Origin: a virus | DNA: 64,000 nt | IMG/VR virus record: IMGVR_UViG_3300022928_002150 | Coordinates: 1 to 64,000 of that record | Reading direction: 5' to 3' (one strand) | In this document: piece after piece, positions 5,037-30,964 of the stretch | How positions within the stretch are numbered: the stretch's first letter is position 1 | Layout: each line of letters starts with the position of its first letter | Made by a program: the position numbers and the translations under genes | Notes under the pieces: model-generated | Databases searched by the model: none | What the model saw: only the letters and a program-made list of their open reading frames with translations | Told to the model about the DNA's origin: nothing

Positions 5037-8000
5037 ATGGCTTTAGTACTACGACTTGTAAAAGGCACAGAACTTACTTTTACAGAGCTAGACGGAAACT
5101 TCACTTACTTAAATACAACTAAGTACGAAAGTGGAGATGACGCCCAATTTGGACAACTGAATTTTAGTACCCTCTCAGACGGTGTGCTACAGATTCTTGC
5201 GTTCACAAATGACCCGACTCTGAATTCTATAGACGGGTCAGTAATACTTCCTACTGAAGAAGCAGTAAAATCTTATGTTGCTTCTTATCACACTAATAAT
5301 CCTTATTCTTTTTCAGAACTCAATGACTCGAGCGGTGCTGGATTTCTCGGTGCCGTACTCATTCATGACGGCAGTAACTACGTTCCAAAAGCTCTTGAAA
5401 TCACAGACTTTTCAGATTTCGATGTTTCTACTGTTTCAGACGGATCTATTCTTGCATACGATGCTCAAACCTCTCTCTGGACCGCAACCTCTGCGGCAGC
5501 TTTAAGTTCCGTTTATTTAAATGATCTTGTAAATGTAAATGTTACAGGTGCCTCTGAAAATGATGTACTCGCTTTTGACGGGTCTTTTTGGGTAAGTACA
5601 AGTCCTGTTCTAGAAATAGAAAACTTAACAGATGTAAACTACCTCACAACTCCGAAGGCTGGCGAATCTTTAATATACGATGACGTTTTAGAACAGTGGA
5701 TTCCTGGAACACCAGCTACTGTCGGAAAACTAACTGTATCAGCCGCACTCAATACTAACATTACTGCAGGAAAGGCTGTTACAGTAGGTAGACAGAATAA
5801 CAGAACTGTAGTCTTTCCTATCTCTTATCTACCTCCTGAGTTTGGTCAATCAGAAACTGTTGGTAATCAGTTAGGCGCTCAAACTCATTCGCTATGGCTA
5901 AGCTCTCAGAAAAAATTTATTGTAGCATTTATTAATGCTACTACAGGTGCGGGCGAGTTTGTAATTGGAGAAGTAGATGATGATGGTGTAGAGATAACTA
6001 TGGACACCACTGTCCATGAGTTTGCTACCGGCGTCGGAGGAGAGTTCTCCGTTACGTATGATATAGCAACTACTCGAGTTATTTTTGCCTGGAAAGATAT
6101 TATTACCAATATTGGATATACTCGTGTAGTTACAATTGCAGGGTTTGCGGTAAGCATGTCGCAGTTTCCTATCGATTTTTCTTTGGGCGAGGCTATCGGC
6201 TCTCACTCCGTCTCTTCTGACACACAAAGCGGAAATTTAATTTTTCATTATGCGGATAACTCTTTAAACGGAGGAGGCGTAGGTATAGGTCGAGTAGGTG
6301 AAATAGATGGCTTAGACGTACTTTTTCAGCCGCCCACTGCTTTTACAACCAGGGAAGTTTACGACCTTCATACTGTTTATGCTCCTACAACTAATAGGCA
6401 CGTTACTGTATTTACTGACCAAATCAGTGAAGGCTACTCGATGGTCACTTTACTTACGGGGGTATTTGCAACTTATAGAACACCAAGAACATTTGATGAT
6501 GACTTAAGTTTTCCTTTTGTAACTATACTTCCAGACGGTAGCTCTTGCTGGGTTGCTTATAAAGATAATACGGTTAGTCCCCCTCGTGGAAAGGTCACAA
6601 GGTTTACTGCTAGCGCCACAGGTACTAGCACGGTAACAGACAACTCGTTGTACTCCAGATATTTCTTCGAAGATGGAACTGGCTCAGGGCCTACCCCGTA
6701 TAACATGTCAAATATTAGGCCTGCAGTCTTAGCATCCACTACAGATAGGGCGGCAGTTATTTTATGGGGGAGAGAGAACTCTGACACCAATGATATAGAA
6801 CTCTTTACAACAACTATTGCATATAGTGAATGGAGTGGCCGCCCCATTGTAGATATAGACGGAGCTGAGGCAGCTTCAGACGATACTTATGATTCTTTTA
6901 TAATAAATGGAAGCATACATCCCGCTTCTACTAGTGGGCTAACAGAAAGTAGAATGATAGTTCCGTTAGATTTAGCTACGGGAGTACGGGCTATAACCTA
7001 TGGGAACAATCCAGTAACTAATATTAAAGACTGGTTTGGTATCGCAGATGAAAGTTTTTCTAGTGGTTCAAGTGACTATAATTCTGGAATTATAACTATT
7101 TTAGGGGGCCAGACGAAGGTTACTAGTTGGATAGGTGGTTCACAGCCGAGTAATTTTGTTCCTGGTACTCCAATTTATATTGATAATTCAAGGTTATACC
7201 GAGGAAGTCTTCGCACCAGTGATGTAGGAAGCGGCGCCATTGGCATAAGTATAGATGCAAGCACCGTTCTTATTACCGGTGATGTCGAGCCAAATCCTAG
7301 CATAGCAGGTATACCCAAAAGCATAACAGAACTAGAGGATGTGGATACACTATCGACAGCTCCTCTTTCTCAACAATTTCTTCAATGGAATACCAATGCA
7401 CAAAAATGGGTTCCAGCCTATGCCTCAGTAACTGGTCAAATAAGTAATCTTGATGATGTCGATACTTATAACGGTTTTGAAGCTGGCATACCTAAAAGCC
7501 ACTTACTTGCTTGGGATAATTTTAACATAGAATGGGTTCCTAAATCAATAAATCAAATTTTAATTGATGAGCCTGTAGAGCTGGGAGAACTTAGTAATGT
7601 AAATTTTGTTCAAGTAAATGATGGAGATCTGCTCACATACAATGGTCCTACTCAGACTTGGATTTCATCCCCGGTAAATTTAGAAACCGATCTTGGAGAT
7701 ATAAATGATGTAGATTTAACAACCGGATTAGCTACAGGAACATATCTTCAGTATGATGGTGCTAATTGGGTTCCTGGCCAAGCCGTTTCAACTATGCCCA
7801 GGTTTAGAGATCTTGCAGATACCGGAGGCCAGTGGAGTGGCCAACAAGGTATGGTACCTATATTTAATACAACGGGTACCTATGCAAACCAGTTCACCTT
7901 AGGCTTTGTTAGTAATTTTGGCGGCATTGGAGACTTGTTTGATGTAGATACTTCTACTATTTCGCCCCAACCCGGTCAGTCTCTTGTTTGGAATGGAACT

Positions 8001-11000
8001 AAGTGGGCGCCTGCTACTATTACTGGTGGTGGAGGAGGAAGTACTGGCGGTGGCGATACTGGAGGGGGTACTACTACTACTCCTAGCCCAAACCCTGACG
8101 GGGGTGGAGGAAGTACTGGCGGAACCGTTGAAACGGAAGACGGGGATATAATAGAAATTCCCTCTTTAGACGTTGATGAAGATATAGAAGAACCTATCGA
8201 AACTGGAACTGGGTTTGTTTCTGAGACTGTTACTAATACTGATACTGTACCTGCAACGGATGTTATTCCTGAAAACGTAAAGCCGGGCGACTTATTTCAA
8301 ACACCCTCATTATCTAAGCCGTATCCTGTTGTATACAGCATATCTGAAGACAGGACAGAGCTCACTCTTTCTGAAAATATATCAACTAGTCAATTTGAGG
8401 CTATTATTTTTGCAACTCCTCCTGTCTACCAAGTAGTTGCAACTACTGGCACTGTAGAGGTTGGTCAGGGGGTTGTAGGTACTGAATCCACTAGTGAGAT
8501 CTTTCTTGATACTCCTTTGCCTGAAGAAATTGTTCCTGGTCACGCTGTTTACATAGGAAGCAATGTAAATATTCCTATTGTAAGTGGAATAAGTGGAGAC
8601 AGATTAAGCTTTGCTGTAAGTTATGATATAGATATAACTGCAGGCGCTACTATTATATTTAAAGTAGTAATTCCTATGGCAATCTCTCAGGATGTAGGAT
8701 CATTCGTAAATAACAATCCTGCAGGGACTACTGGTAGCAACACTATTGTACTGAACGACCCTGTGGGCCCAGATGTAGAAGTTAATCATTATGTAATGCA
8801 CTCGGAACTAGAGTCTGCTCCTAGAGTAGTATTTATATCTACAGACAGACTTAGCATTACTGTAAATAAAAATGTAGACGCTTTAGTAGACGGTCAATTT
8901 ATTACCTTTGGTAGTACTACTAGCAAGCAGCAAGAAGTAACGTTTACTCTAGCGGAACTATCAGATACAGATATTCAAACAGCTGCTTTGCAAGATGGAG
9001 AGGTTTTACTGTGGAACTATGAAAACCAAGTATGGACTACTAGTGACGTCCAACTATCTAATTCATTAGACGCATTAAATGATGTTCGTATCGACAACCC
9101 TCAAGAAGGTCAAATACTTAGATATACTACACTAGCTGATGCAAACAGATATGAAAATATAGATCCCAGTTTTGGAGCAGGCGCTCTAGCAGATTTTAAT
9201 TACAATATAGCGAATCAGGCATCGAACAATATTCTTACGTGGCACGCCCCTTCTTCCGCCTTTATCAGTACTCCTATAGGCGAGGTCATGAGAGCAAGTG
9301 ACTATACCATGAACAACCTTGCAGACGTTACTGGTGTGCCCTTTGATGGATCTGCTTTAGTATACGACAGTAACACAGGATTCTATAGCTCTGCGTCCTT
9401 CCCAGACAGCATATATGATTTAGCTGATGTCGCAGGTTTGCCAGAACCGTCTGATGCTCTTGTATGGAACGGCGCAAGCTGGAGCCCTGCGCCCATACCC
9501 AGGGCTTTAGAAGACCTAAACGAAAGATCTATTTTTCTATTAAACCAGCTAAACGAGAACGGTTTTCAAAATCTGGGAAATACACCTTCTTCTAAGTTTT
9601 TAAAATGGACGGGAACTACTATAGATACTGTAGTTACGGGCAGCATAGAAGGAATAGGACTTAGATTAGAAGATTTAGACGATGTTTCAATAACTGAACC
9701 CTACAATTCGGATTTTATTTCTTGGGATCCCGATACAAACTCATGGGTAACTAGAAGTGTAGAAGGTGCAGTAATTTCTATAGGTTTGGATGTTTTAACC
9801 GATGTAGATTTTCAGGCAGTGCCTCCACAAAACAGAAACACATTAGAGTATAACGCGTCTACAGGGGAGTGGAGACCTGCAACTCGCTCAGGTGTAGCCA
9901 ACTATATAGCCGCTGAAAACCTTTCAGCAGGTGACCTACTAGCTTTAAGATCAGACGGCGAAGTCGAAAAAATAGCAGAAATAGAAAGTAGTGTATCCAG
10001 CATCTTTCAAGCTTCAGGTAGCCCTTCAGTAAGTTCTGATTACTATGGTAAAAGTGTATTTGTATCTGATGACTATTATATTGTGGGAGCTCCAGGGTAT
10101 GAGTACTTAACTGTTGGGGGTAAGGTAGAAATATTCTCTACAAGTACTAACACCCTTGTACAAACTATAAACAACCCCAATGCAACTGCCAATGATAAAT
10201 TTGGAGAATCGGTATCAATTTCAAGCCAGTTTTTTACTATTGGGGCTCCAGGCTACGACTCTAATGCAGGCCGAATATATGTATATAGTTTACCAGGGTT
10301 CATACTAGAACATACTATCGACAACCCAAATGCAGCAACATCAACGTTAGACGACCAATTTGGCTTTAGAGTACAGAATACAAATACTTATGTAGCGGTT
10401 ACTGCAATTAATGAAGAGCCTCAATCCTTGTCAGATACTAACTCTGGCACAGTGTACGTATTTAACACTGCAACTGGAAATCAGTTAGGCTTTGTAGAAA
10501 ATCCCTCTCCCAGCATAACAGGGTTTGGTAGTGCTATATCAATATCTACTTCAGGCGATTTAGCTATTGGAAGCCCTAGCGAGGAAAAAGTATATGTCTA
10601 TGAGGCAGCTACTTTAAGCTCTATCTATACTATTTCTAACCCTGGCGGTGCAGGAGACTTCGGTAGCTCTATTGCAATTTCTTCTGACGGACGTATGGTG
10701 GTTGGTGCTCCTACTGCTGATACGGGCAGCGGAAAACTGTATATATACAATTTAAATAATGGCGATTTTAACTATACTCTTAACAACCCTAATAGAAACG
10801 CAGACGTACCCACAGGCGATAATTTTGGTAGTAGCGTTGCTGTAACAACTGAGTATATACTTGCTTCTGCCAGTGGAGAGAATGTAGGGAGTGTTTATTT
10901 GTTCGAGGCCGCCTCGGGAGCTTTTAGAAATGAATTTTTATCAGATGAAGGAGCAACAAATATAAATTGGGGATTTGGTCTAGCTCTTACGAACGACTAT

Positions 11001-14000
11001 CTTATTATTGGTTCGCCTAGACTAACCGTTGCAGGTACAGGTAAAATTGCAACTTTTGCTAGTGATTCGTTCATAGAAAGTAATGCTGGTGATTGGGTAG
11101 GAATATCAGAACAATCGGTAGAAGCTACTCAACAAGTAACTGTAACAACTGTAGGTGCCGTAAATAAGTTTGTATCCGGTCTGACTATTAATAAAAACTA
11201 TTATATAGACGGTAGAGGCTTTATAACTGAGACTGAGACAGATTACGGTGTGTTAGGAAAAGCTCTTGCTGCTGATGAGTTGCTTATTACAGGAAATGTA
11301 GTATCTGCTGAAACCGGAGTAACTTATATAAATGATATCCGTGATGTAGATACTGTAACTGTTCCTCCCTCTAACAATCAAGGCTTAGTATGGGATAGTG
11401 CTAATAATAGGTGGGCCCCTAAAAATATAGGATATAGTAATATCACTACTTTTGGTGGCTTAACAGATACAAGTGTTGGGGGAGTCCAAGCAGGCCAAGG
11501 TCTTAAATACAGTGGATCTTCATGGGGTCTTGCAACATATATTGAAGCTGGAACTCTATCTCTAAGTAGTCTATCAGATGTTGATACTTCCGGGGTTGTT
11601 GATAATGCCGCCTTAGTTTACAGTTTGCAATTTGATGAGTGGCAGGCAAGTGTTATACCGATCCCAGCAACAATAAACGATTTAAATGATATAGATCTTT
11701 CCACAGTATCTGCGGTTAATAATGATGTATTAGTTTATAATGCCAACAGCGAGCTGTGGGAGCCAGGTCAAGTTTCTAGAGTATCTGCGCTTGGGGACTT
11801 AATCGATGTAGATTTAGCTTCTCAGCCGCCTGTACAAGATAATGTTATTGCTTATCAAGCGGGCGTTGGCTGGACACCTGTTCAAATTACTAATATTACC
11901 GTAACGCAGTTAGATAACATGGATGATGTTAGAACTGCGGGACTTTATGCACCTGTTCCAGGAGAAACTTTAATTTGGAACGGTATTGAAGGCGTATGGG
12001 AGCCAGGCTCTCCAGCCTTAGACACTATTAGTATAGGATCTCTTTCAGACGTAGATACTACGCCCGGCACTGCAAGTGAGCCTAGTTTCGGAGAATTTTT
12101 AGCCTGGGACGGAGTTAATTGGTCTCCTGGCTCAACAGCACCTACTGCTGCAACTCTTAATAGTTTGCTAGATGTAGAGGTAATTGCAAACCCAGCAAAA
12201 GAAAAGGAAGTACTTACTTATGATGCTACTACCCAGAAGTGGTACCCTAGAGCAGGGCACTCGGGTGGTATAGAAAACTTCATAGCAAATGGAGATATTA
12301 GTGATGGAGATATAGTTTCTATTACCCCTCCTGGAAAAGTTAAAAAGACAGGTCAAGAGCCCTTTTTACCTGCTTGGAATGTAGAAAACCCTACTATATT
12401 TGGTACGGCTACCAGTGATCAATTTACTAGTGCAGTTGTTGCATCAGGAGATTATATTATTGCTGGTGCTCAATATGAGGACGAGATAGAAGGAAGTAGT
12501 TCTGGGGTTGTATACGTATTTAATAATTTTGGTACTCAACAGTATTATATTAAAAATGAAAATATAAATAATCCTGTAACAGGGGACCGATTTGGTAATT
12601 CTTTAGACGCTAGCGGTAACCTTCTAGCGGTAGGATCTCTTCTTGCTGATGATCTAACAGGGTATAATCAAGGAGCAGCTTATGTCTACCGCTTGGCTAC
12701 AGGAACATCCCCTAGTGGAGACTTATGGCTATCAATACAAAATCCTGATGGTACAAACAACGCGCAGTTTGGCACTGACGTAGCTATAAGCGATTATAAT
12801 GGTGAGGCTCGTTTAGCCGTCGGCGCACCACTAGAAGATATGAGTGACCAATACTCAGAAGCTGGATGCGTATACTTTTTCGATCCTGACATAGGTGTAG
12901 GAGACCCTCAATATGGGTTTTTATACCGTATTGATAATCCTAATACAGTCGGTAGTATATCAGGGGATTACTTTGGCCAAAGAGTGTCTCTTACTCAAGA
13001 TAGAAAATACTTAGCTGTTACTGCGTCCAGAGAAGGTACAACTAGCGTAAAGGGATATGTCTATATATATGACGTAAGCAGTGACTCTCTTCCCGTTTTA
13101 TTACATACTATATCAAATCCAAATCCGGGTGGAGGTTCAGATGCAACGCATGGGTTTGATATAGTATGGGATAGAAATCCATCAATTAAAAGATTAGCTA
13201 TATCTGCACCAGAGCAGGATTTTACGGGTGCTAATGAAGGTCTTGTTTATATATATGATGTAACCGATGAAGCTTGTACTCTTATAAATACTATTCAAAA
13301 CCCTGATACTTATCCTCTTCCGCAGGGAGATGAGTTCGGCTACTCCATCGATATGAAAGATAACAAAATACTAGTAGGTGCAAGAAGAGAAGATCAGGGG
13401 TACATAGGAGGAGTATATACTAATGCTGGTAAGGCTTATTATTTCGAAGCCGATACCGGTACTCCTATTGCATATTTTGACAATCCTAATATATATGGGA
13501 ATAGTACAACTGAGTACTTTGGTTCAAGTGTTGCTATTGGTAATGATAAATTATACGTAGGTGCTCCTTTTGCTAGGAATACTATTTCAGGTGACTTTAA
13601 CTCTGGACACCTTACAGCTTTTGATATTAATATAACTAGTAATGCTTCATCTTGGATAGGAGTAGCTTTTGAAGATATTTTAGATGGAGATGTAGGACAA
13701 GTAACCCTGTTTGGTGGTATAGCACACAATCAAGTTAATCTATTGCCGGGACAGAATTATTATTTAAATATTGATGGTACTCTTAACAGTTCTCCCACAA
13801 ATTTAGGTATTTTTGGTAAAGCTTTAAGTGCAAACGACATTTTAATAACAGGGGACGTTGAATCTAATACTGCTGACCAAGTAAATAATTTAAATGATCT
13901 TGGAGATGTTACTGCATTTGCTTCAGACGGCCAGGCGCTTGTTTGGAACGCACAAAGCTCTCAATGGGTAGCAGGAGATGCGGCTGGGGGTGTTAGTAGC

Positions 14001-17000
14001 TTATCGGATTTAGATGATATAAATTTACCTATACCTTCAAATATTCAAACAGGGGAGGTTTTAACTTGGAACGCGGTATCTCAGTCTTTTGTTAATGCTG
14101 TAACTGGTTCAAGTAACGTAGACGTATTAGATGATTTAACAGACGTAGATCTTAGTAGTGTTTTACCTTCAGCTTTGCAGATATTGCAATATAATGGCTC
14201 AATATGGTCTCCTCAAGACTTACCCGAGGGACAGCGTATTACTGGTATTGCAGCGGAGCAAATATTACAAGGCGGCTTAGTAGTACTAAATAGTTCTGGT
14301 CAGTTTGAAAATCCCACAATAACTGCAGGGGAGCTGGTATCTTCTTTCCCATCTAGCTCAGATTTGGGACTTTTTGGGCATACAATTGCAGAAGAAGGCG
14401 GCCGTGTCGCAGTTTCAGCACCTTATCATAGAATTGGCCCCAACAGCGGAGTCGCAACCGGCCTAGTAAGGATTTATGATACAGATAACTCTACTTTAAT
14501 ACGTACATTACAACCCTCCCTAAGCCTCACAACGCCCGCGGCTTGGCGAGGAGAAACTAATCAGGCGTTTGGATTTGCAGTAGCAATAAAAGATGATTAT
14601 GCAGTTGTAGGCTCTCCTCTTAAGGATTTAGATGCGGTTAATTCTGGCGTTGTATACGTATATAGAATAAGCTCAGGTACTTTAATAGCAGTTCTAGAAA
14701 GCCCTGAGCCTCTTCTCCAAGGGCAGTTCGGTTCCTCAGTAGCTATTAACTCAACCTATGTAGCAGTGGGCGCACCACGAGTAGATATAGGGAATAATGC
14801 ATTAGTAGGTAAAGTATATAGATATCCTATCTCGTTATTAGAGTCATCAGAGTATGGAATACCAGAAGGAGAAACAGAAGCAAGATGGGATCCTCTTTTA
14901 GTTCCTGATTTTACATTCAACAATAATAATGATGATGGAGGCACTGGAGGAGACCTGTTTGGGTCTGCACTGAGCGCAACAGATACTTACTTGTCTATTG
15001 GAGCTCCTGGGGAGGATACTGGAGGACAGCTATCAACCGGTAGAATATACGTTCGTAATATTAATACTGGGTCTACTATACACACTCTGCAGGATACTAA
15101 TATAGGATCTAACGGACTAGGTTTTACCTTCGAAATGGATGATTCTATCATAGTTGCAGGAACCCCAGACTTTAATGGAGGTTTGGGAAGGGTATTGGTA
15201 TATTCTACAACCTCGGGTGCAGTGCTTGCAGAAATAAACAGTCCAGATCAGATAGGAGATAAATTCGGTAGGTCAGTAGGGCTGGGATCGAGTCAAATCG
15301 TTGTAGGTTCAGAAGCAAATAATGACGTATTAGGTTACAATGACTCAGGAAAGTTTTATAGCTATAATAGAGCATCCACTACTTCGTACCCCCTATATGC
15401 GGCATTTGAAAACCCGGGTTATGTTGTCAACCCTTCCGGAAGTTTATTTGGATTTTCTGTAGCGGTAACAAATTCTGGTCGTGCTATTGTTGGTGCTCCG
15501 TATAATGATAATGTTCAGGGAACTCAACAGTTCCCCGCAACAGATAGAGGGGTATTCTTTATATACGATGTAACACTGCAAGCTACACAATCAAATGCAG
15601 CAGACTGGATGGGCATTGCAGAACAGACAGCAGTTACAGGAGAACAACTAGAAGTGGTAATTCTAGGAGGAAAAACTTCTAGTATTTACTCTAATTTAGT
15701 TCCTGGAGAATATTACTATGCTGGGGCTGACGGAAGTCTAACCCTTGAAGAAACTTCTTACGGAATAGTAGGTCCTGCAGCAAGTGTTTCTGAAATATTA
15801 ATACTTGGAAGTATTTCAGGCGTATCTGATATGGCTGACTTAGCTGATGTTGATTTTTCTGCGGGATTAGTTCCCCAACATGGATTAACTTGGAACGGTC
15901 AAAAGTGGGTAGCAAGCTATGTATCAACAGTAACTAATTTACTAGATCTTGAAGATGTAAATTTACTAGACTCTCCTCCAGAAGATGCACAAGGCTTAGT
16001 TTATGATAACAACACGTCTAAATGGGTTCCTGCTAATATAGGCTACTCTAATGTAGCTCAGTTTAGTGATCTTAATAATGTAGATGTTAGTAATGCTACA
16101 GTAGGCCAAAGCATTGAATGGAACGGAGTAAATTGGATTCCTACTACGTTTTCTTCTGTTAATAGTATAAATGATTTAACGGATGTAAACACTACTACTC
16201 TTAAAGTTGATTACGATATACTTACTTGGAGCGAGTCTGCAGATGAGTGGATAATAGACAAACGTAATTTTGGCAATTTTTTAAACCTAGAGGCTTATGC
16301 TCCAACACAACCAATACAAGCTGGAGATCCTGTTTATATTACGGACGATGGTAAAGTTGCTGCAATCAAAGGCACGGAGACTGTTCTAGGCACAGAAAGC
16401 CTAGTAAATACTTTATATCCTCCTGTATCGAATTCTAATTTTGGAACTAATTTAGCGGTTAGTAAAGATATTATAGTTGTAGGTAACCCGTATTTTACCA
16501 GCGGAAATATTCTGAGTACAGGTAGAGCATACATCTATAATGCTACTAGTGGGCAGCTTCTATATACTTTGGAGCCTCCTACTGATTATTCATTACAAAG
16601 TTTTGGCTGGGGAGTAGCTACAAATGGCAGCGAAGTAGCTATTACTGCTAAAGAGTCTCCCTCTAATAATGATTACGGGCGTATTTATTTATACGATGCT
16701 TATACAGGAGCTTTATTAAGACAAATAGTAAACCCAGAAGACTCTGTATCTACGAATGGCCCTTTTGCTCAGCATAATTCAGTAGTAATGACGTCATCTT
16801 ATTTAATTGTAGGTAACTCTAATTGGAGAGATGCTACGTTAGGAACTACTCCGGGTAAGGCATACGTATTTAATATATTTACAGGCACTCAGGAGTATAG
16901 TTTTAATAACCCAAATCCTTCTAATGGAGCAGATTTTGGTCGATATATTAATATAGATGAAAGTGAAAGTATCATTTCAATAACAGATACAGGCACTGGA

Positions 17001-18980
17001 TCTAGTTTAACACATATTTATGAGCTATCTGATTATTCCTTTAGGACTACTATAGACCATAGTCTGGTAGGTGTAGTAGCAGATAAGTTTGCCCTTAATA
17101 CAAACTACCTTATTACAGGGTCTAACCAGCACGGTTATTTATCGGTATGGAGCACTGTAAGTGGCGCAAACTTGTATAGCAAACCTATTATTTCTTCTTC
17201 CGGTAAAGATATTGTTTGTAATGATAAACAAGTAGCAGTAATTACTGGATCAAGTGATGGAGTAAAATATTACGATATTGCTTCAGGACTAGAACTAGCT
17301 AATTTTAGTGTTGGTAGCTCTTTTCAATCGGGAGCTATGTATAAAACTAAATTAATACATAAGAGCAACCTAGGAGAAGTATTAAACTATAATTTAAGTG
17401 GTATTAAGACTAACACTAGAGCAGCAGATTGGGTAGGTATTAATGAATCTTTAACATATGATGGAGACATAGCAAAAATTAATACAGGGTCTGGTGTTAC
17501 TAGCTCTGTAACTAATCTTGTTACTGGTTTAAACTACTATGTGTCTATTGACGGTAGCTTATTTCCCGGGCCTACAGGATTTGGTAAAATAGGTAGAGCA
17601 ATAGATTCTACCACTATATTAATTAGCTCTAATACTAGCAATATAGATTTGGACGAAGAAAGTACAGCCGCTCTTATCGCAGGAATAAACGATTTAACAG
17701 ACGTTGATATTTTTACTTCATTTCCCGCAGATAATAATTTCTTACAATACGATTCGTCCTCAGCTCTTTGGGTACCTGGTACAGCAGCTATTACTCTGCT
17801 GAATGATGTTACTATATCTAACTTACAAGATAAAAATTTATTAGTATATTCTACAGACACTAGTTCCTGGGAAAATTCTTCAATATCTACATCAGAGTTA
17901 TCGGATGTAGATTATACAACACCAATCGAATCTGGCCAAACGCTAGTCTGGGATGGAAACACAAGCTCTTTCAAACCTGGAGTTACTGATAGATCAATAA
18001 CTAGTTTAAATGACGTAGACGATCAGGCACCTAGCGTAGGACAAATTTTAATATGGGACGATATATCTACCCAGTGGGTAGCCCAAGATAACGTTAGTAC
18101 TTTAGAAGGCTTGACGGATGTTGATATTTCGGGGGTCAGTAATAATCAGTTCTTACAATATAATAATGTAACATCCCTTTGGGAGCCAGGAGATGTAGCA
18201 ACTTCTATAGCTGAGTTAACAGATGTAAATGTAAGCGGCGGTATAACAGATGGCCAATATTTAGTATATAACTTAAATACTAGCGTATGGCTTCCGCAAG
18301 ACTTACCGGAATTTGCTGCAGCAATTGTTGACTTAACAGATGTAAATGCGGATTCTCCAACACAGGGGCAAGGACTAATATTCGATGATCAAACTAATAA
18401 ATTTGAGCTCGCAATAGTAGGCACTTCCAATGTTGATACTTTAGATGACCTATCTAATGTGTCAGTGCCCGCCCCAAATGATGGCGATGTTTTAAAATAT
18501 AATTCAAATTCAAGTGCTTGGGAAGCTACGCCGACCCCAAGCCCAGCAGTAATCTATGCAACTAGAGCCTCGTTTCCTTCTTTAGGTAACTTAGGTGATT
18601 TATCTTTTGCACAGGACACAGGCGCACTATACGTATGGGAAGGTACAGTTTGGTATAATCTAAAGAGAACTAATGCGTTCTACTTAGTTCGAGCCGGAAA
18701 CTTTACTGGACCATTAGAGGGTCAACAGGTATTTCAACCACAGCAAGCAATAACATTGCATGAAATAAGAGCTCAAGTCGATCAACCGTCAGGAGAGACT
18801 CTTATTTTTGCAGTTATGAAAAATTCCGTAGAAGTTCAACAATTTGTAATGCCTTCAGCGCAAGGTATTGTAGAGGCTGCTTTTACTAGCGGAGTAACTG
18901 TAGGTTTGGTGGATGAAATAACTCTTGACATAATATCAGGACCAGGTACAAACTTGTCCGTGAAGTTCATTTACTCATAA
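5037..18980 (+). CDS. Giant modular fibre/adhesin-like virion protein, 4,647 aa
   Basis: One uninterrupted frame of 13.9 kb. The N-terminus (MALVLRLVKGTELTFTELDGNFTYL) is a common start of phage tail fibre proteins. The rest alternates short fibre repeats, with a core like DLTDVD followed by GQ.L.WNG..W.PG, and four long blocks of FG-GAP-like propeller blades (pattern FG.SVAI, VGAP, VYVY, TI.NPN) near residues 1657-2015, 2451-2868, 3099-3518 and 3788-4121. Each block is followed by a module containing DW.GI, GL..G..YY...DG and LITG; an extra copy of that module lies near residue 664. A Gly/Ser/Thr-rich linker spans about 995-1028. The C-terminal 150 residues form a distinct domain. Likely function: host surface attachment, by analogy with long fibres and integrin-type propellers; no enzyme motif seen. 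Confidence 0.75.
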   Translation: MALVLRLVKGTELTFTELDGNFTYLNTTKYESGDDAQFGQLNFSTLSDGVLQILAFTNDPTLNSIDGSVILPTEEAVKSYVASYHTNNPYSFSELNDSSGAGFLGAVLIHDGSNYVPKALEITDFSDFDVSTVSDGSILAYDAQTSLWTATSAAALSSVYLNDLVNVNVTGASENDVLAFDGSFWVSTSPVLEIENLTDVNYLTTPKAGESLIYDDVLEQWIPGTPATVGKLTVSAALNTNITAGKAVTVGRQNNRTVVFPISYLPPEFGQSETVGNQLGAQTHSLWLSSQKKFIVAFINATTGAGEFVIGEVDDDGVEITMDTTVHEFATGVGGEFSVTYDIATTRVIFAWKDIITNIGYTRVVTIAGFAVSMSQFPIDFSLGEAIGSHSVSSDTQSGNLIFHYADNSLNGGGVGIGRVGEIDGLDVLFQPPTAFTTREVYDLHTVYAPTTNRHVTVFTDQISEGYSMVTLLTGVFATYRTPRTFDDDLSFPFVTILPDGSSCWVAYKDNTVSPPRGKVTRFTASATGTSTVTDNSLYSRYFFEDGTGSGPTPYNMSNIRPAVLASTTDRAAVILWGRENSDTNDIELFTTTIAYSEWSGRPIVDIDGAEAASDDTYDSFIINGSIHPASTSGLTESRMIVPLDLATGVRAITYGNNPVTNIKDWFGIADESFSSGSSDYNSGIITILGGQTKVTSWIGGSQPSNFVPGTPIYIDNSRLYRGSLRTSDVGSGAIGISIDASTVLITGDVEPNPSIAGIPKSITELEDVDTLSTAPLSQQFLQWNTNAQKWVPAYASVTGQISNLDDVDTYNGFEAGIPKSHLLAWDNFNIEWVPKSINQILIDEPVELGELSNVNFVQVNDGDLLTYNGPTQTWISSPVNLETDLGDINDVDLTTGLATGTYLQYDGANWVPGQAVSTMPRFRDLADTGGQWSGQQGMVPIFNTTGTYANQFTLGFVSNFGGIGDLFDVDTSTISPQPGQSLVWNGTKWAPATITGGGGGSTGGGDTGGGTTTTPSPNPDGGGGSTGGTVETEDGDIIEIPSLDVDEDIEEPIETGTGFVSETVTNTDTVPATDVIPENVKPGDLFQTPSLSKPYPVVYSISEDRTELTLSENISTSQFEAIIFATPPVYQVVATTGTVEVGQGVVGTESTSEIFLDTPLPEEIVPGHAVYIGSNVNIPIVSGISGDRLSFAVSYDIDITAGATIIFKVVIPMAISQDVGSFVNNNPAGTTGSNTIVLNDPVGPDVEVNHYVMHSELESAPRVVFISTDRLSITVNKNVDALVDGQFITFGSTTSKQQEVTFTLAELSDTDIQTAALQDGEVLLWNYENQVWTTSDVQLSNSLDALNDVRIDNPQEGQILRYTTLADANRYENIDPSFGAGALADFNYNIANQASNNILTWHAPSSAFISTPIGEVMRASDYTMNNLADVTGVPFDGSALVYDSNTGFYSSASFPDSIYDLADVAGLPEPSDALVWNGASWSPAPIPRALEDLNERSIFLLNQLNENGFQNLGNTPSSKFLKWTGTTIDTVVTGSIEGIGLRLEDLDDVSITEPYNSDFISWDPDTNSWVTRSVEGAVISIGLDVLTDVDFQAVPPQNRNTLEYNASTGEWRPATRSGVANYIAAENLSAGDLLALRSDGEVEKIAEIESSVSSIFQASGSPSVSSDYYGKSVFVSDDYYIVGAPGYEYLTVGGKVEIFSTSTNTLVQTINNPNATANDKFGESVSISSQFFTIGAPGYDSNAGRIYVYSLPGFILEHTIDNPNAATSTLDDQFGFRVQNTNTYVAVTAINEEPQSLSDTNSGTVYVFNTATGNQLGFVENPSPSITGFGSAISISTSGDLAIGSPSEEKVYVYEAATLSSIYTISNPGGAGDFGSSIAISSDGRMVVGAPTADTGSGKLYIYNLNNGDFNYTLNNPNRNADVPTGDNFGSSVAVTTEYILASASGENVGSVYLFEAASGAFRNEFLSDEGATNINWGFGLALTNDYLIIGSPRLTVAGTGKIATFASDSFIESNAGDWVGISEQSVEATQQVTVTTVGAVNKFVSGLTINKNYYIDGRGFITETETDYGVLGKALAADELLITGNVVSAETGVTYINDIRDVDTVTVPPSNNQGLVWDSANNRWAPKNIGYSNITTFGGLTDTSVGGVQAGQGLKYSGSSWGLATYIEAGTLSLSSLSDVDTSGVVDNAALVYSLQFDEWQASVIPIPATINDLNDIDLSTVSAVNNDVLVYNANSELWEPGQVSRVSALGDLIDVDLASQPPVQDNVIAYQAGVGWTPVQITNITVTQLDNMDDVRTAGLYAPVPGETLIWNGIEGVWEPGSPALDTISIGSLSDVDTTPGTASEPSFGEFLAWDGVNWSPGSTAPTAATLNSLLDVEVIANPAKEKEVLTYDATTQKWYPRAGHSGGIENFIANGDISDGDIVSITPPGKVKKTGQEPFLPAWNVENPTIFGTATSDQFTSAVVASGDYIIAGAQYEDEIEGSSSGVVYVFNNFGTQQYYIKNENINNPVTGDRFGNSLDASGNLLAVGSLLADDLTGYNQGAAYVYRLATGTSPSGDLWLSIQNPDGTNNAQFGTDVAISDYNGEARLAVGAPLEDMSDQYSEAGCVYFFDPDIGVGDPQYGFLYRIDNPNTVGSISGDYFGQRVSLTQDRKYLAVTASREGTTSVKGYVYIYDVSSDSLPVLLHTISNPNPGGGSDATHGFDIVWDRNPSIKRLAISAPEQDFTGANEGLVYIYDVTDEACTLINTIQNPDTYPLPQGDEFGYSIDMKDNKILVGARREDQGYIGGVYTNAGKAYYFEADTGTPIAYFDNPNIYGNSTTEYFGSSVAIGNDKLYVGAPFARNTISGDFNSGHLTAFDINITSNASSWIGVAFEDILDGDVGQVTLFGGIAHNQVNLLPGQNYYLNIDGTLNSSPTNLGIFGKALSANDILITGDVESNTADQVNNLNDLGDVTAFASDGQALVWNAQSSQWVAGDAAGGVSSLSDLDDINLPIPSNIQTGEVLTWNAVSQSFVNAVTGSSNVDVLDDLTDVDLSSVLPSALQILQYNGSIWSPQDLPEGQRITGIAAEQILQGGLVVLNSSGQFENPTITAGELVSSFPSSSDLGLFGHTIAEEGGRVAVSAPYHRIGPNSGVATGLVRIYDTDNSTLIRTLQPSLSLTTPAAWRGETNQAFGFAVAIKDDYAVVGSPLKDLDAVNSGVVYVYRISSGTLIAVLESPEPLLQGQFGSSVAINSTYVAVGAPRVDIGNNALVGKVYRYPISLLESSEYGIPEGETEARWDPLLVPDFTFNNNNDDGGTGGDLFGSALSATDTYLSIGAPGEDTGGQLSTGRIYVRNINTGSTIHTLQDTNIGSNGLGFTFEMDDSIIVAGTPDFNGGLGRVLVYSTTSGAVLAEINSPDQIGDKFGRSVGLGSSQIVVGSEANNDVLGYNDSGKFYSYNRASTTSYPLYAAFENPGYVVNPSGSLFGFSVAVTNSGRAIVGAPYNDNVQGTQQFPATDRGVFFIYDVTLQATQSNAADWMGIAEQTAVTGEQLEVVILGGKTSSIYSNLVPGEYYYAGADGSLTLEETSYGIVGPAASVSEILILGSISGVSDMADLADVDFSAGLVPQHGLTWNGQKWVASYVSTVTNLLDLEDVNLLDSPPEDAQGLVYDNNTSKWVPANIGYSNVAQFSDLNNVDVSNATVGQSIEWNGVNWIPTTFSSVNSINDLTDVNTTTLKVDYDILTWSESADEWIIDKRNFGNFLNLEAYAPTQPIQAGDPVYITDDGKVAAIKGTETVLGTESLVNTLYPPVSNSNFGTNLAVSKDIIVVGNPYFTSGNILSTGRAYIYNATSGQLLYTLEPPTDYSLQSFGWGVATNGSEVAITAKESPSNNDYGRIYLYDAYTGALLRQIVNPEDSVSTNGPFAQHNSVVMTSSYLIVGNSNWRDATLGTTPGKAYVFNIFTGTQEYSFNNPNPSNGADFGRYINIDESESIISITDTGTGSSLTHIYELSDYSFRTTIDHSLVGVVADKFALNTNYLITGSNQHGYLSVWSTVSGANLYSKPIISSSGKDIVCNDKQVAVITGSSDGVKYYDIASGLELANFSVGSSFQSGAMYKTKLIHKSNLGEVLNYNLSGIKTNTRAADWVGINESLTYDGDIAKINTGSGVTSSVTNLVTGLNYYVSIDGSLFPGPTGFGKIGRAIDSTTILISSNTSNIDLDEESTAALIAGINDLTDVDIFTSFPADNNFLQYDSSSALWVPGTAAITLLNDVTISNLQDKNLLVYSTDTSSWENSSISTSELSDVDYTTPIESGQTLVWDGNTSSFKPGVTDRSITSLNDVDDQAPSVGQILIWDDISTQWVAQDNVSTLEGLTDVDISGVSNNQFLQYNNVTSLWEPGDVATSIAELTDVNVSGGITDGQYLVYNLNTSVWLPQDLPEFAAAIVDLTDVNADSPTQGQGLIFDDQTNKFELAIVGTSNVDTLDDLSNVSVPAPNDGDVLKYNSNSSAWEATPTPSPAVIYATRASFPSLGNLGDLSFAQDTGALYVWEGTVWYNLKRTNAFYLVRAGNFTGPLEGQQVFQPQQAITLHEIRAQVDQPSGETLIFAVMKNSVEVQQFVMPSAQGIVEAAFTSGVTVGLVDEITLDIISGPGTNLSVKFIYS

Positions 18981-26970: not shown

Positions 26971-27336
26971 ATGGAGAAGCTAAAAAGAGACCCGATAAAA
27001 TATATACGGGATAAAGCAAAAGCAAGATATGAAAAAGACAATAAATGCTATATCTGCAATGCTACCACTAAGTTAGATTTTCACCACTTTTTTAGTCTAA
27101 GCCCTTTGTTCCATAAGTGGATAAAAGAAATGGGCTATTTTGAAGAAGATATTAGAGAATTTAGAGATGAGTTCATTAATGAACACATTGAAGAATTATA
27201 CGATTATACTGTAACTCTTTGCCATGAGCATCATTTAAAGTTACATAGTATATATGGCAGAAATCCCCCCTTGCACACAGCAAAAAAACAGCAAAGATGG
27301 GTAGAGATTCAAAGAGAGAAAAATGGCTTGGTATAA
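26971..27336 (+). CDS. HNH-type endonuclease
   Basis: 121 residues. The zinc-binding and catalytic pattern is visible: CYICNATTKLDFHHF (Cys-x2-Cys followed by His-His), then TLCHEHHLKLHS with the second metal and catalytic residues. HNH proteins encoded between terminase and portal genes assist terminase cutting in HK97-like phages, and its position between terL and portal fits that role. No strong ribosome-binding site is evident at the ATG. It overlaps the portal gene by 14 bases. A free-standing homing nuclease is the alternative. Confidence 0.75.
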   Translation: MEKLKRDPIKYIRDKAKARYEKDNKCYICNATTKLDFHHFFSLSPLFHKWIKEMGYFEEDIREFRDEFINEHIEELYDYTVTLCHEHHLKLHSIYGRNPPLHTAKKQQRWVEIQREKNGLV

Positions 27337-28522: not shown

Positions 28523-28891
28523 ATGGCAACTAGACGACAGACCGTTGCAACTTTAACTAAGCTACGAGATCATATTGTACAATTCGGAGTAAAAGCTCCG
28601 ATATCTTATGAAGAGTATATTAAGTTAAAGCCTACCAATCCTATTACTAAAAGGGAGCTTGGCCGTGTATTTAACGGTAGATGGGCTAGGGTATTAACAG
28701 CCCTGATCAGGAAGTTCCCTACAGTATATGATGACGCTGCAAAAGCTCATGCAAAGCCTGTAATTCAGCCTAAGGCAGAACCTAAGGTAGAGCCTGAAGC
28801 AGCGCCTAAATCAGCACCAAGGAAGCCGGTAACAAAACCTGCTCCTAAGCGGTTCGCTGCTAAGAAGGAGGATGTTAAAAACGATGAATAA
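28523..28891 (+). CDS. Small protein with Pro/Lys/Glu-rich tail, 122 aa
   Basis: Residues 1-75 look like a compact helical domain with a possible DNA-binding pattern (ITKRELGRVFNGRWARVLTAL); the remainder is a low-complexity tail with PKAEP/PKVEP-like repeats and basic end. It lies between portal and protease-capsid genes and overlaps the latter by 8 bases when the capsid frame starts at 28884. Probably a head-associated or regulatory protein. Family not assigned. Confidence 0.6.
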   Translation: MATRRQTVATLTKLRDHIVQFGVKAPISYEEYIKLKPTNPITKRELGRVFNGRWARVLTALIRKFPTVYDDAAKAHAKPVIQPKAEPKVEPEAAPKSAPRKPVTKPAPKRFAAKKEDVKNDE

Positions 28892-30917
28892 AATTTTTAG
28901 TTTTACATCTACATTTAAAGCGTTAAATGAAGATGATGATGGGATTCACATTTGCGGAATGGCAAGCACTAATGATGCTGATCGTGCAAATGACATAATT
29001 GACGTGGAGGCCTGGACAAAGGGAGGCCTTGCTAATTTTGAAAAGAACCCTATAATTTTATTTAATCACGACTACAATAAACCGATCGGACGAGCTACTG
29101 GGCTTAAAGTTACAGACAATGGTTTGGAACTTAAAGCGAAGATAAGTAAGTCTGCTCCTGATAGTGTAGGTACGTTGATTAAAGAAGGCATTCTTGGAGC
29201 TTTTTCTGTTGGTTTCCGGGTCAAGGATGCGGATTACTTAGAGGAAACTGATGGATTAAAGATTAAGGACGCTGAGTTGTTCGAGGTATCAGTTGTATCT
29301 GTACCTTGCAATCAGGCAGCTACTTTTTCGCTAGCTAAATCTTTCGACTCAGAAGCTGAGTACGAAGATTTTAAAAAAACTTTTTTAAAAAATAGTGTGG
29401 ATCTAGCCGGTCAGTCTCTGGCTAAAGACGAAGTCAATACTTCTAGCGTAGCTAGTGACACACCGGAAACCGCGCAAAGCGCACAAAAGGAGATAGAAAT
29501 GTCTGATGTTAAAAATTCAGAAATTGACTTAGAAGCTTTTGCTAAAAAGGTAGCGGAAGAAACCGCTGCCAAAATCGCAATGAAGCAAGCCGAAGTCAAA
29601 GCTGCAGATGAAAAAGCAGCACTCGAACAACAAGAAAAAGCCTCTCAGGAAGCTGAAGAAAAAGCCGCTCAGGAAGCTGAAGTCAAGTCTGCTATTGTTA
29701 CTGGTGTTCAATCAGGAACTGAAAAGTTGATGGCTGATTTCGAAGAGAAGATGTCTGCATCTAATGCTGACCAGGCTGAAGTTATTGCTAAGTTCCAAAA
29801 AGAACTTACCGAAAAAGAAGAAGAAATCACTAAAATGCGCATGTCTAAAGGGCTTTTCGCTGATCGTGGTTCTGAACAGTCACTTGAAAAGCATGCTAAA
29901 GAACTTATGCACGCGCATCTTGCTGGTGTAATTACTGGTAAAGGTTGGAACACTGACTATGCTAAGTCTGTTTTCGAAAAAGCTGGTGTTACTTACACGG
30001 CTACAGGGGGTCAAAACGATCCCGGTATCGACGTTGTAGTATCTCGCGAAATTGAGAAAGAAATTCAATTAGAGCTTCGCACCGCAGCTTTATTTAAAGA
30101 AATGCCAGTAGAGAGTCAATCTACTGTATTGCCTCTGCAGTCTGATACCAATCTGGCTAAGTGGGCAAATGCACGCGACAGTGCTAACGATGGTACTGGT
30201 AGTGATATTGCTAACCGTGGCAATTCTGACAATACTTATGATGTTGGCCAGAAGGTTGTACAGGTTGATCGTCTTATTTCAACTTCTTTCCTCGATAACT
30301 ACATCGATGAGAAAGTTTTGATTAATATCATGCCTATGCTGACTGCTGGTATTGCACGTTCACATGCCCGAGCTGTTGATGCTGCTATTATTAATGGTAA
30401 CTCTGCAAATATTACAGGTTTGATTGGCCATGCAACTGCTGGTGCTGAATGGGGAGCTCAGGTTGCTGCTAACCTTACGTTTAGTGCTGATGTACTTGTT
30501 AAGTGTCGTCGTAATATGGGCGTATACGGCCTTAACCCACAGGACGTTGTATTTATCGTATCACAAGATAAGTACTATGACCTTTTAGAAGATCCCGACT
30601 TCCAGACTGTTGATGAAGTTGGTTCAGATATGGCAGTACGTTTGACTGGTCAGGTTGGTCGTGTATACGGTTCTCCTGTAGTTCTTACGGACAATATGCC
30701 TGCTGACGCTGAAGATGGATTTGGTGGAGCTTTGTGTGTCAACACTTCAAACTTCATTATTCCTCGTCTCCGTGGAATTACTGTTGAGCAGGACTACGAA
30801 GTAGCTGCACAACGCCGCGTATTAGTTGCTACTCAGCATATGGGCTTTGATGAGCTCTTTGCTGGTGCTGGTGGTAAGTCTGCTGCTACTCACGCAGTAT
30901 ACAATGCCTTAGCATAA
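28884..30917 (+). CDS. Prohead protease - scaffold - major capsid fusion frame
   Basis: One 677-residue frame with three parts. Residues 1-160 are an HK97-type (S78) prohead protease with His in FNHDY (residue 62) and Ser in AFSVGF (108). Residues about 180-310 are Ala/Glu/Lys-rich helices like a delta/scaffold region. Residues about 330-677 are an HK97-fold major capsid protein. The ATG at 28884 is preferred over 28872, because AAGGAGG abuts 28872. An in-frame ATG at 29499 (residue 206) follows AAAGGAGATAGAA at ideal spacing, so a 472-residue capsid precursor could be made on its own. Codon choice in the capsid part shifts to CGT/GGT/GCT, as in highly expressed genes. A strong terminator follows. 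Confidence 0.92.
   Translation: MNKIFSFTSTFKALNEDDDGIHICGMASTNDADRANDIIDVEAWTKGGLANFEKNPIILFNHDYNKPIGRATGLKVTDNGLELKAKISKSAPDSVGTLIKEGILGAFSVGFRVKDADYLEETDGLKIKDAELFEVSVVSVPCNQAATFSLAKSFDSEAEYEDFKKTFLKNSVDLAGQSLAKDEVNTSSVASDTPETAQSAQKEIEMSDVKNSEIDLEAFAKKVAEETAAKIAMKQAEVKAADEKAALEQQEKASQEAEEKAAQEAEVKSAIVTGVQSGTEKLMADFEEKMSASNADQAEVIAKFQKELTEKEEEITKMRMSKGLFADRGSEQSLEKHAKELMHAHLAGVITGKGWNTDYAKSVFEKAGVTYTATGGQNDPGIDVVVSREIEKEIQLELRTAALFKEMPVESQSTVLPLQSDTNLAKWANARDSANDGTGSDIANRGNSDNTYDVGQKVVQVDRLISTSFLDNYIDEKVLINIMPMLTAGIARSHARAVDAAIINGNSANITGLIGHATAGAEWGAQVAANLTFSADVLVKCRRNMGVYGLNPQDVVFIVSQDKYYDLLEDPDFQTVDEVGSDMAVRLTGQVGRVYGSPVVLTDNMPADAEDGFGGALCVNTSNFIIPRLRGITVEQDYEVAAQRRVLVATQHMGFDELFAGAGGKSAATHAVYNALA
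29485..29501 (+). promoter_or_regulatory. Internal ribosome-binding site for a separate capsid precursor
   Basis: AAAAGGAGATAGAA followed by ATG (29499-29501), in frame with the protease-capsid fusion. GGAG is 6 bases from the ATG, a better start signal than that of the full-length protein. It would yield scaffold plus capsid without protease. Confidence 0.65.
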
Positions 30918-30930
30918 AAATTAACTTTTT

Positions 30931-30964
30931 ACTTCGGGGGACAGCAATGTCCCCCCAAGTTTTT
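30931..30964 (+). terminator. Rho-independent terminator after the capsid gene
   Basis: Stem GGGGGACA (30936-30943) and TGTCCCCC (30948-30955) closed by GCAA, flanked by ACTT/AAGT pairs and ending in a T-run (30960-30964). It can reduce transcription of the downstream connector and tail genes relative to capsid. Confidence 0.85.

Follow-up and report, generated by a model that had tools for sequence, protein, structure and literature searches.

A virus gene that joins a prohead protease, a scaffold-like delta domain and a T5-type major capsid protein in one frame carries a conserved internal Shine-Dalgarno (SD) sequence and ATG at the position where T5-like capsid genes start, and conserved RNA hairpins lie immediately upstream, within the translated linker. 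The gene is probably host to a nested capsid gene, whose internal initiation would be tuned by a cis-acting RNA embedded in the coding sequence. It was found in the window, by which we mean the whole stretch of 64,000 nucleotides that was analyzed, part of a 95.8-kb virus record. The relevant features are as follows.

28865..28871, plus strand: external SD AAGGAGG, 12 nt ahead of ATG 28884 and abutting an alternative ATG at 28872
28884..30917, plus strand: fused gene of prohead protease, linker, delta (scaffold) domain and major capsid protein, 677 aa
28986..29333, plus strand: S78 protease domain (Pfam match, residues 35-150)
29336..29372, plus strand: RNA hairpin P0, covarying, present also in relatives without the central hairpin
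29388..29510, plus strand: match to covariance model R1 (central hairpin, P3, SD, ATG)
29407..29466, plus strand: central RNA hairpin P2, with a variable apical stem at 29430-29443
29472..29482, plus strand: RNA hairpin P3, with both-side changes in 7/7 consensus-helix pairs
29488..29492, plus strand: internal SD AGGAG
29499..30917, plus strand: nested capsid-precursor frame from the internal ATG, 472 aa
29529..29861, plus strand: helical delta/scaffold domain (residues 216-326, structure prediction)
30027..30869, plus strand: mature capsid domain matching T5 pb8 (residues 382-662)

The fused gene is a single open frame on the plus strand, from ATG 28884 to TAA 30917, and encodes 677 aa. A preliminary description of the sequence had placed protease, scaffold-like and capsid domains in this one frame, and profile and structure matches across 28884-30917 bear this out. 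Peptidase_S78 was matched at residues 35-150 (53.2 bits, cut-off 21), and the fused protein scored 67.9 bits against TIGR01543 (cut-off 59), the test used for an HK97-type prohead protease. The Phage_capsid profile was matched at residues 386-652 (29.2 bits, cut-off 24.2), and the score for TIGR01554 was under its cut-off (22.5 of 27.5). Matches in PHROGs were to head maturation protease and major head protein families, spanning the protease and delta parts. According to sequence searches of solved structures, the nearest proteins were T5-like capsid proteins, 8ho3 aligning from residue 223 (E 8e-40); mature T5 pb8 aligns from residue 382. A predicted model of moderate quality (mean pLDDT 65) has long helices at residues 216-326 and the capsid fold after approximately residue 330, and its top seven fold hits were the DT57C and T5 capsids. 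By profile, sequence and fold, the capsid part is an HK97-fold major capsid protein of the T5 type. Residues 166-215 of the linker were below pLDDT 50 and are predicted to be disordered as protein.

Upstream of the fused gene are the terminase large subunit, a small ORF, the portal and a 122-aa ORF, and downstream are a head completion protein, a weak T5 p143-like match, the tail terminator and the major tail protein; together they make up a T5-type head module. The small ORF between terminase and portal (26971-27336) looks HNH-like by eye, and in Kamaji the equivalent position is occupied by an annotated nicking endonuclease. The 122-aa ORF (28523-28891) in the interval between portal and protease has an Ala/Lys/Pro-rich C-terminus, overlaps the start of the fusion and had no Pfam or PHROG match. 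Elsewhere in the window, a single ORF of 4647 aa (5037-18980) is unusually long for a phage record of 96 kb.

Protease and capsid are separate genes, with gaps of 2-17 nt, in all seven cultured T5-like phages examined (Kamaji, PM135, Brizo, EPS7, X1, JSF12 and D411), and none of the 1,019 matched records in a phage collection covered 80% of the fusion in one place. Met206 of the fused protein coincides, to within about 10 residues, with the start of the separate T5-like capsid gene; this match and the conserved RNA structure of the linker both go beyond the preliminary description. Since the relatives have separate adjacent genes and Met206 falls at the capsid start, the fusion is most likely the result of two neighbouring genes losing the stop that parted them, with the capsid start retained.

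The in-frame ATG at 29499, which encodes Met206, is preceded by AAAAGGAGATAGAA, and the preliminary description was correct in pointing to a strong ribosome-binding site at residue 206. With 28 ORFs of the window taken as genes, GGAG at a spacing of 4-10 precedes 2 of 177 in-frame internal ATGs, ATG 29499 included. Among relatives picked by peptide patterns elsewhere in the gene, the ATG and AGGAG were present at the junction in 74/74 distinct genes, and GGAG stood at the right spacing for the junction ATG in 36/36 clusters compared with 0/546 other in-frame ATGs. Loss of conservation at the internal site, which the preliminary description had named as evidence against a nested start, was looked for in protein-selected relatives, more divergent ones included, and the ATG and SD were found in 151/151 distinct fused genes and in 74/74 of a set related to locus L281 (224 distinct genes in total, L281 being in both sets and counted once). 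By cluster, and under a looser criterion, the corresponding values were 66/66 and 21/21 for the junction ATG versus 23/995 and 19/287 for other in-frame ATGs. Fused genes with the conserved SD and ATG diverge to about 62% nucleotide identity or less. Codon -4, just before Glu, was CAG in 32, AAG in 28, GAG in 5 and TTG in 1 of the 66 clusters, representing four amino acids, and the Glu codon at -3 was GAG in 65/66 clusters, GAG being 38% of Glu codons in the gene. Conservation of the internal SD acts at the nucleotide level, through codon choice and despite residue changes, and the combination of this SD with the internal ATG is not a chance occurrence.

Relatives were taken as the best 80 matches per protein search, which favours fused genes, and within those best 80 matches per search all protein-selected relatives examined carry the fusion. 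Requiring a complete N-terminus and 540 or more open codons left 162/164 protein-selected loci. Locus L278 has a frame break in its capsid part. For L281, 79 of the best 80 relatives were used; 78 of the best 80 are full-length fusions and the other two are cut. Three loci that were listed again among the protein-selected set had first been found by DNA motif and were excluded. Motif conservation within loci selected by the DNA motif is biased, and the covariation, tree, accessibility, rewrite-energy and ATG/SD cluster counts were made on protein-selected loci only. Covariance model R1 was built from alignment A1, motif-selected loci included; counts from alignment A3 are tilted in favour of the structure, since A3, unlike A4 and A6, was made to fit the model.

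Compensatory changes, near-zero synonymous variation and low folding energy identify the linker at 29336-29482 as a structured RNA within coding sequence. The RNA domain stops 5 nt ahead of the internal SD, and the reading frame is kept through the hairpins in the genes counted. Among protein-selected relatives, synonymous variation reaches its minimum for the gene at about residues 165-216, the lowest windows starting at residues 170-172. A second stretch of lowered synonymous variation surrounds the conserved protease SVGF at 29181-29291 (residues 100-136). The top ranks of an unsupervised covariation scan of 25,483 column pairs were taken by base pairs of P3, P0, the apical stem and P2. The main element had 16 both-side-changed pairs versus 9.6 in shuffles and 110 both-side cells versus 36 (0/500 shuffles); of the five measures, that of further pair types was attained in 17/500 shuffles. 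P0 had 61 both-side cells versus 20 in shuffles (0/500), and its count of both-side-changed pairs was reached in 20/500.

On a tree built without the linker region, compensations in individual pairs were independent. Those in P3 stood at 12.9:0 for pair 88-104 (p 0.0002) and 9:0 for pair 90-102 (p 0.004), those in P0 at 8:0 for 21-33 (p 0.008), 12.1:0.7 for 24-30 (p 0.002) and 9.2:1.0 for 15-39 (p 0.02), and apical pair 47-52 at 7.4:0.3 (p 0.016). Values for P2 pairs 21-81 (5:0), 34-65 (3:0) and 36-63 (3:0), P3 pair 89-103 (5:0) and apical pair 45-54 (5:0) were individually too few for significance. At P0 pair 15-39 the choice of a Ser codon, silent in the protein, goes along with the identity of the residue eight codons downstream, which protein selection alone would not explain. 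Compared with synonymous rewrites in the gene's own codon usage, run on 36 of the 66 clusters, the native linker had a mean folding-energy z of -2.90 and was below zero in 36/36, versus -0.59, -0.61 and -0.92 for three control stretches. An alternative RNAalifold fold was drawn from invariant columns and was rejected; its pairs, those of the apical stem and P3 aside, are invariant with one exception.

A search of Rfam 15 gave six matches, all with E above 1 and far under gathering scores, so that no family was matched. The element is single-copy and on the plus strand in 17/17 records; candidate second copies were rejected, the extra minus-strand matches overlapping the same hairpin. In a DNA-motif scan, 191 of 192 occurrences among the matches listed were upstream of an in-frame GGAG and ATG, and the remaining one (L134) is cut by the contig end. 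In L145 and L173 the motif is in short frames (118+137 and 175+266 codons around it), reflecting a damaged gene or an assembly error. Ribosome bypass was rejected, the linker being without an in-frame stop, as was an internal promoter, with 3 promoter-like sites versus 5.1 in shuffles and none in the linker.

Model R1 was matched in 79/84 further loci. P2 is absent from four loci (L250, L256, L260 and L275), where the internal start falls at residue 180 and the SD is retained; P0 is kept in the three cluster representatives of this lineage that were inspected. Since the lineage is nested on the tree, the absence of P2 is most likely a loss, and since it keeps the internal start, P2 is not required for that start. 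An unusual P2 variant recurs in L205, L267 and L270 despite their separate places on the tree, which suggests recombination near the linker. L281 is deep on the tree, on a long branch of unsure placement, and its linker was read as a shortened version of the element (CTGGTCA...ACCAG plus the P3 hairpin; 23.7 bits, E 8.5e-4). Many relatives of L281, here the distant clade, have a different pair of hairpins at the equivalent place. Covariation in these is modest: across 16 distinct sequences, 14 cells were found versus 5 in shuffles (0/500), and two of five measures were not above shuffles. The rewrite z for the linker of this clade was -3.49 versus -1.67 for a control stretch that is somewhat structured too. 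The different hairpins at the equivalent place indicate that the sequence was exchanged but position and architecture were retained.

We infer from this arrangement two products, a ratio between them, delivery of the protease by co-assembly and an effect of the RNA on initiation. Initiation at ATG 28884 would give protease-delta-capsid fusions, which would co-assemble with capsid subunits and carry a small protease dose into the prohead, and initiation at ATG 29499 would give a protease-free delta-capsid precursor. Between passing ribosomes the translated linker could fold into the domain of P0, P2 and P3, which would tune internal initiation, most likely by holding the SD open and possibly by being bound by a protein. 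The predicted probability of the SD being unpaired was 0.64 with native upstream sequence versus 0.52 with shuffled upstream sequence, and 0.86 in the window; a role in opening the SD or binding a protein fits this modelled accessibility better than SD masking does. Mean predicted SD energy was -8.6 at the internal site (74 genes) versus -4.7 at the external start (72 genes), where some genes have their true start away from the aligned position (ATG there in 64/74). The external start of the window also has a strong SD, though at a 12-nt spacing. With the external position uncertain and this SD strong, the few fusions and many capsids of the preliminary description are inferred, and an excess of capsid over fusion product is plausible.

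Other explanations were weighed against this one. Were only the full-length fusion made and then cut by proteolysis in the linker, the internal SD would be a relic of the separate capsid gene. The predicted disorder of the linker would suit proteolysis, and a relic start is expected at first given the separate genes of cultured relatives; a relic would decay, yet the SD and ATG persist in all 224 distinct genes despite changing neighbour residues, and even the P2-less lineage retains both, which leaves this explanation very improbable. An on/off switch is likewise improbable; in it, a helix P1 (GAUCU paired to AGAUC) would keep the SD hidden, and binding of a ligand or protein would expose it. 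P1 occurs in many short-context minimum-energy folds, GATCT is invariant among relatives picked by peptide patterns elsewhere in the gene, and the codon two before the internal start is ATC in 52/66 clusters and ATT in none. However, the 5' side of P1 is unchanged and has no compensatory change, its mean pairing probability falls to 0.125 in longer context, and the P1 of the window itself is short of one pair. Without compensation and with low predicted probability the switch is unsupported, the SD-masking P1, drawn from short-context folds, having gained no backing from covariation or the partition function.

Two further explanations accept the RNA and give it another task. The RNA might act on elongation, with ribosomes slowed where the protease meets the delta domain to let the protease fold first, and with the internal start independent of the RNA. 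This agrees with a structure at a domain boundary within translated sequence, but the last hairpin adjoins the SD in the types examined and the invariant bases of P2 exceed what mere stability needs, and we regard it as unlikely. A processing or stability element that gives a capsid mRNA with a protected 5' end has a similarly low probability: several hairpins lie immediately upstream of the SD and a terminator-like hairpin (30936-30955) follows immediately 3' of the gene, but no known processing signal was identified and there was no Rfam match. The tuned nested start is the reading we prefer, and the nested-start interpretation of the preliminary description is partly supported, as far as sequence allows, and extended by the linker RNA. 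A broader proposal is tentative: the element may be a new class of cis-acting RNA, wholly in translated sequence, that sets the fusion-to-capsid ratio in widespread uncultured tailed phages, possibly with feedback by head-protein binding during prohead assembly, and with architecture kept and sequence replaced in the distant clade.

How the right small dose of protease enters each phage prohead is an old question. If the preferred reading is true, a single gene would control the dose, by way of a fusion that co-assembles, a capsid start nested within it and an intervening RNA domain, and annotators would miss the real capsid start in such genomes. The conserved internal start spans a large group of uncultured viruses of bacteria, and coding sequence in hundreds of viral contigs can retain a structured RNA for which no family has been described.

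T5-like phages (Demerecviridae) share with the window a head module of portal, small ORF, protease, capsid and head completion, and the capsid sequence and fold of the window match T5 and DT57C. The major capsid protein of these phages has an N-terminal delta domain, and its gene is separate from that of the prohead protease in 7/7 cultured members inspected, whereas the window group has one frame. A prohead protease/capsid fusion occurs in the thaumarchaeal provirus NCAV2-Pro1 (PMC6563490), and NCAV2-Pro1 and the fusion family NF045541 of NCBIfam resemble the window in having an S78-type protease upstream, fused to an HK97-type capsid; the window protein scored 47.3 bits against NF045541, compared with a cut-off of 525. 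The passages of PMC6563490 consulted mention no internal start or linker RNA for the NCAV2-Pro1 fusion, and a search of open-access literature, with passages of PMC6563490, PMC3528268 and PMC5155283, yielded no account of either feature in a protease-capsid fusion. Protease-capsid fusions are already known, and no description of the linker RNA was found in the open-access literature, which is no proof of absence.

In herpesviruses, UL26 and UL26.5 provide a protease fusion and a more abundant nested assembly protein, a scaffold, made from its own transcript. The window resembles this pair in that it would combine a protease fusion with a nested assembly protein, and differs from it in that the UL26.5 product is a scaffold with a separate transcript. 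In lambda C/Nu3, a nested in-frame start inside the protease gene gives a protease-free scaffold. The preliminary description had drawn an analogy to this system, and a conserved internal in-frame start with a ribosome-binding site, the sequence criterion for a nested gene of the C/Nu3 type, is present in the fused gene. Both systems have an in-frame nested start in a protease gene, which in the window would likewise give a protease-free assembly product. The analogy is loose in that the nested product is a scaffold in lambda and, in the window, would be a capsid precursor with its own scaffold domain, and a conserved RNA in the coding sequence upstream of the start is found on the window side only.
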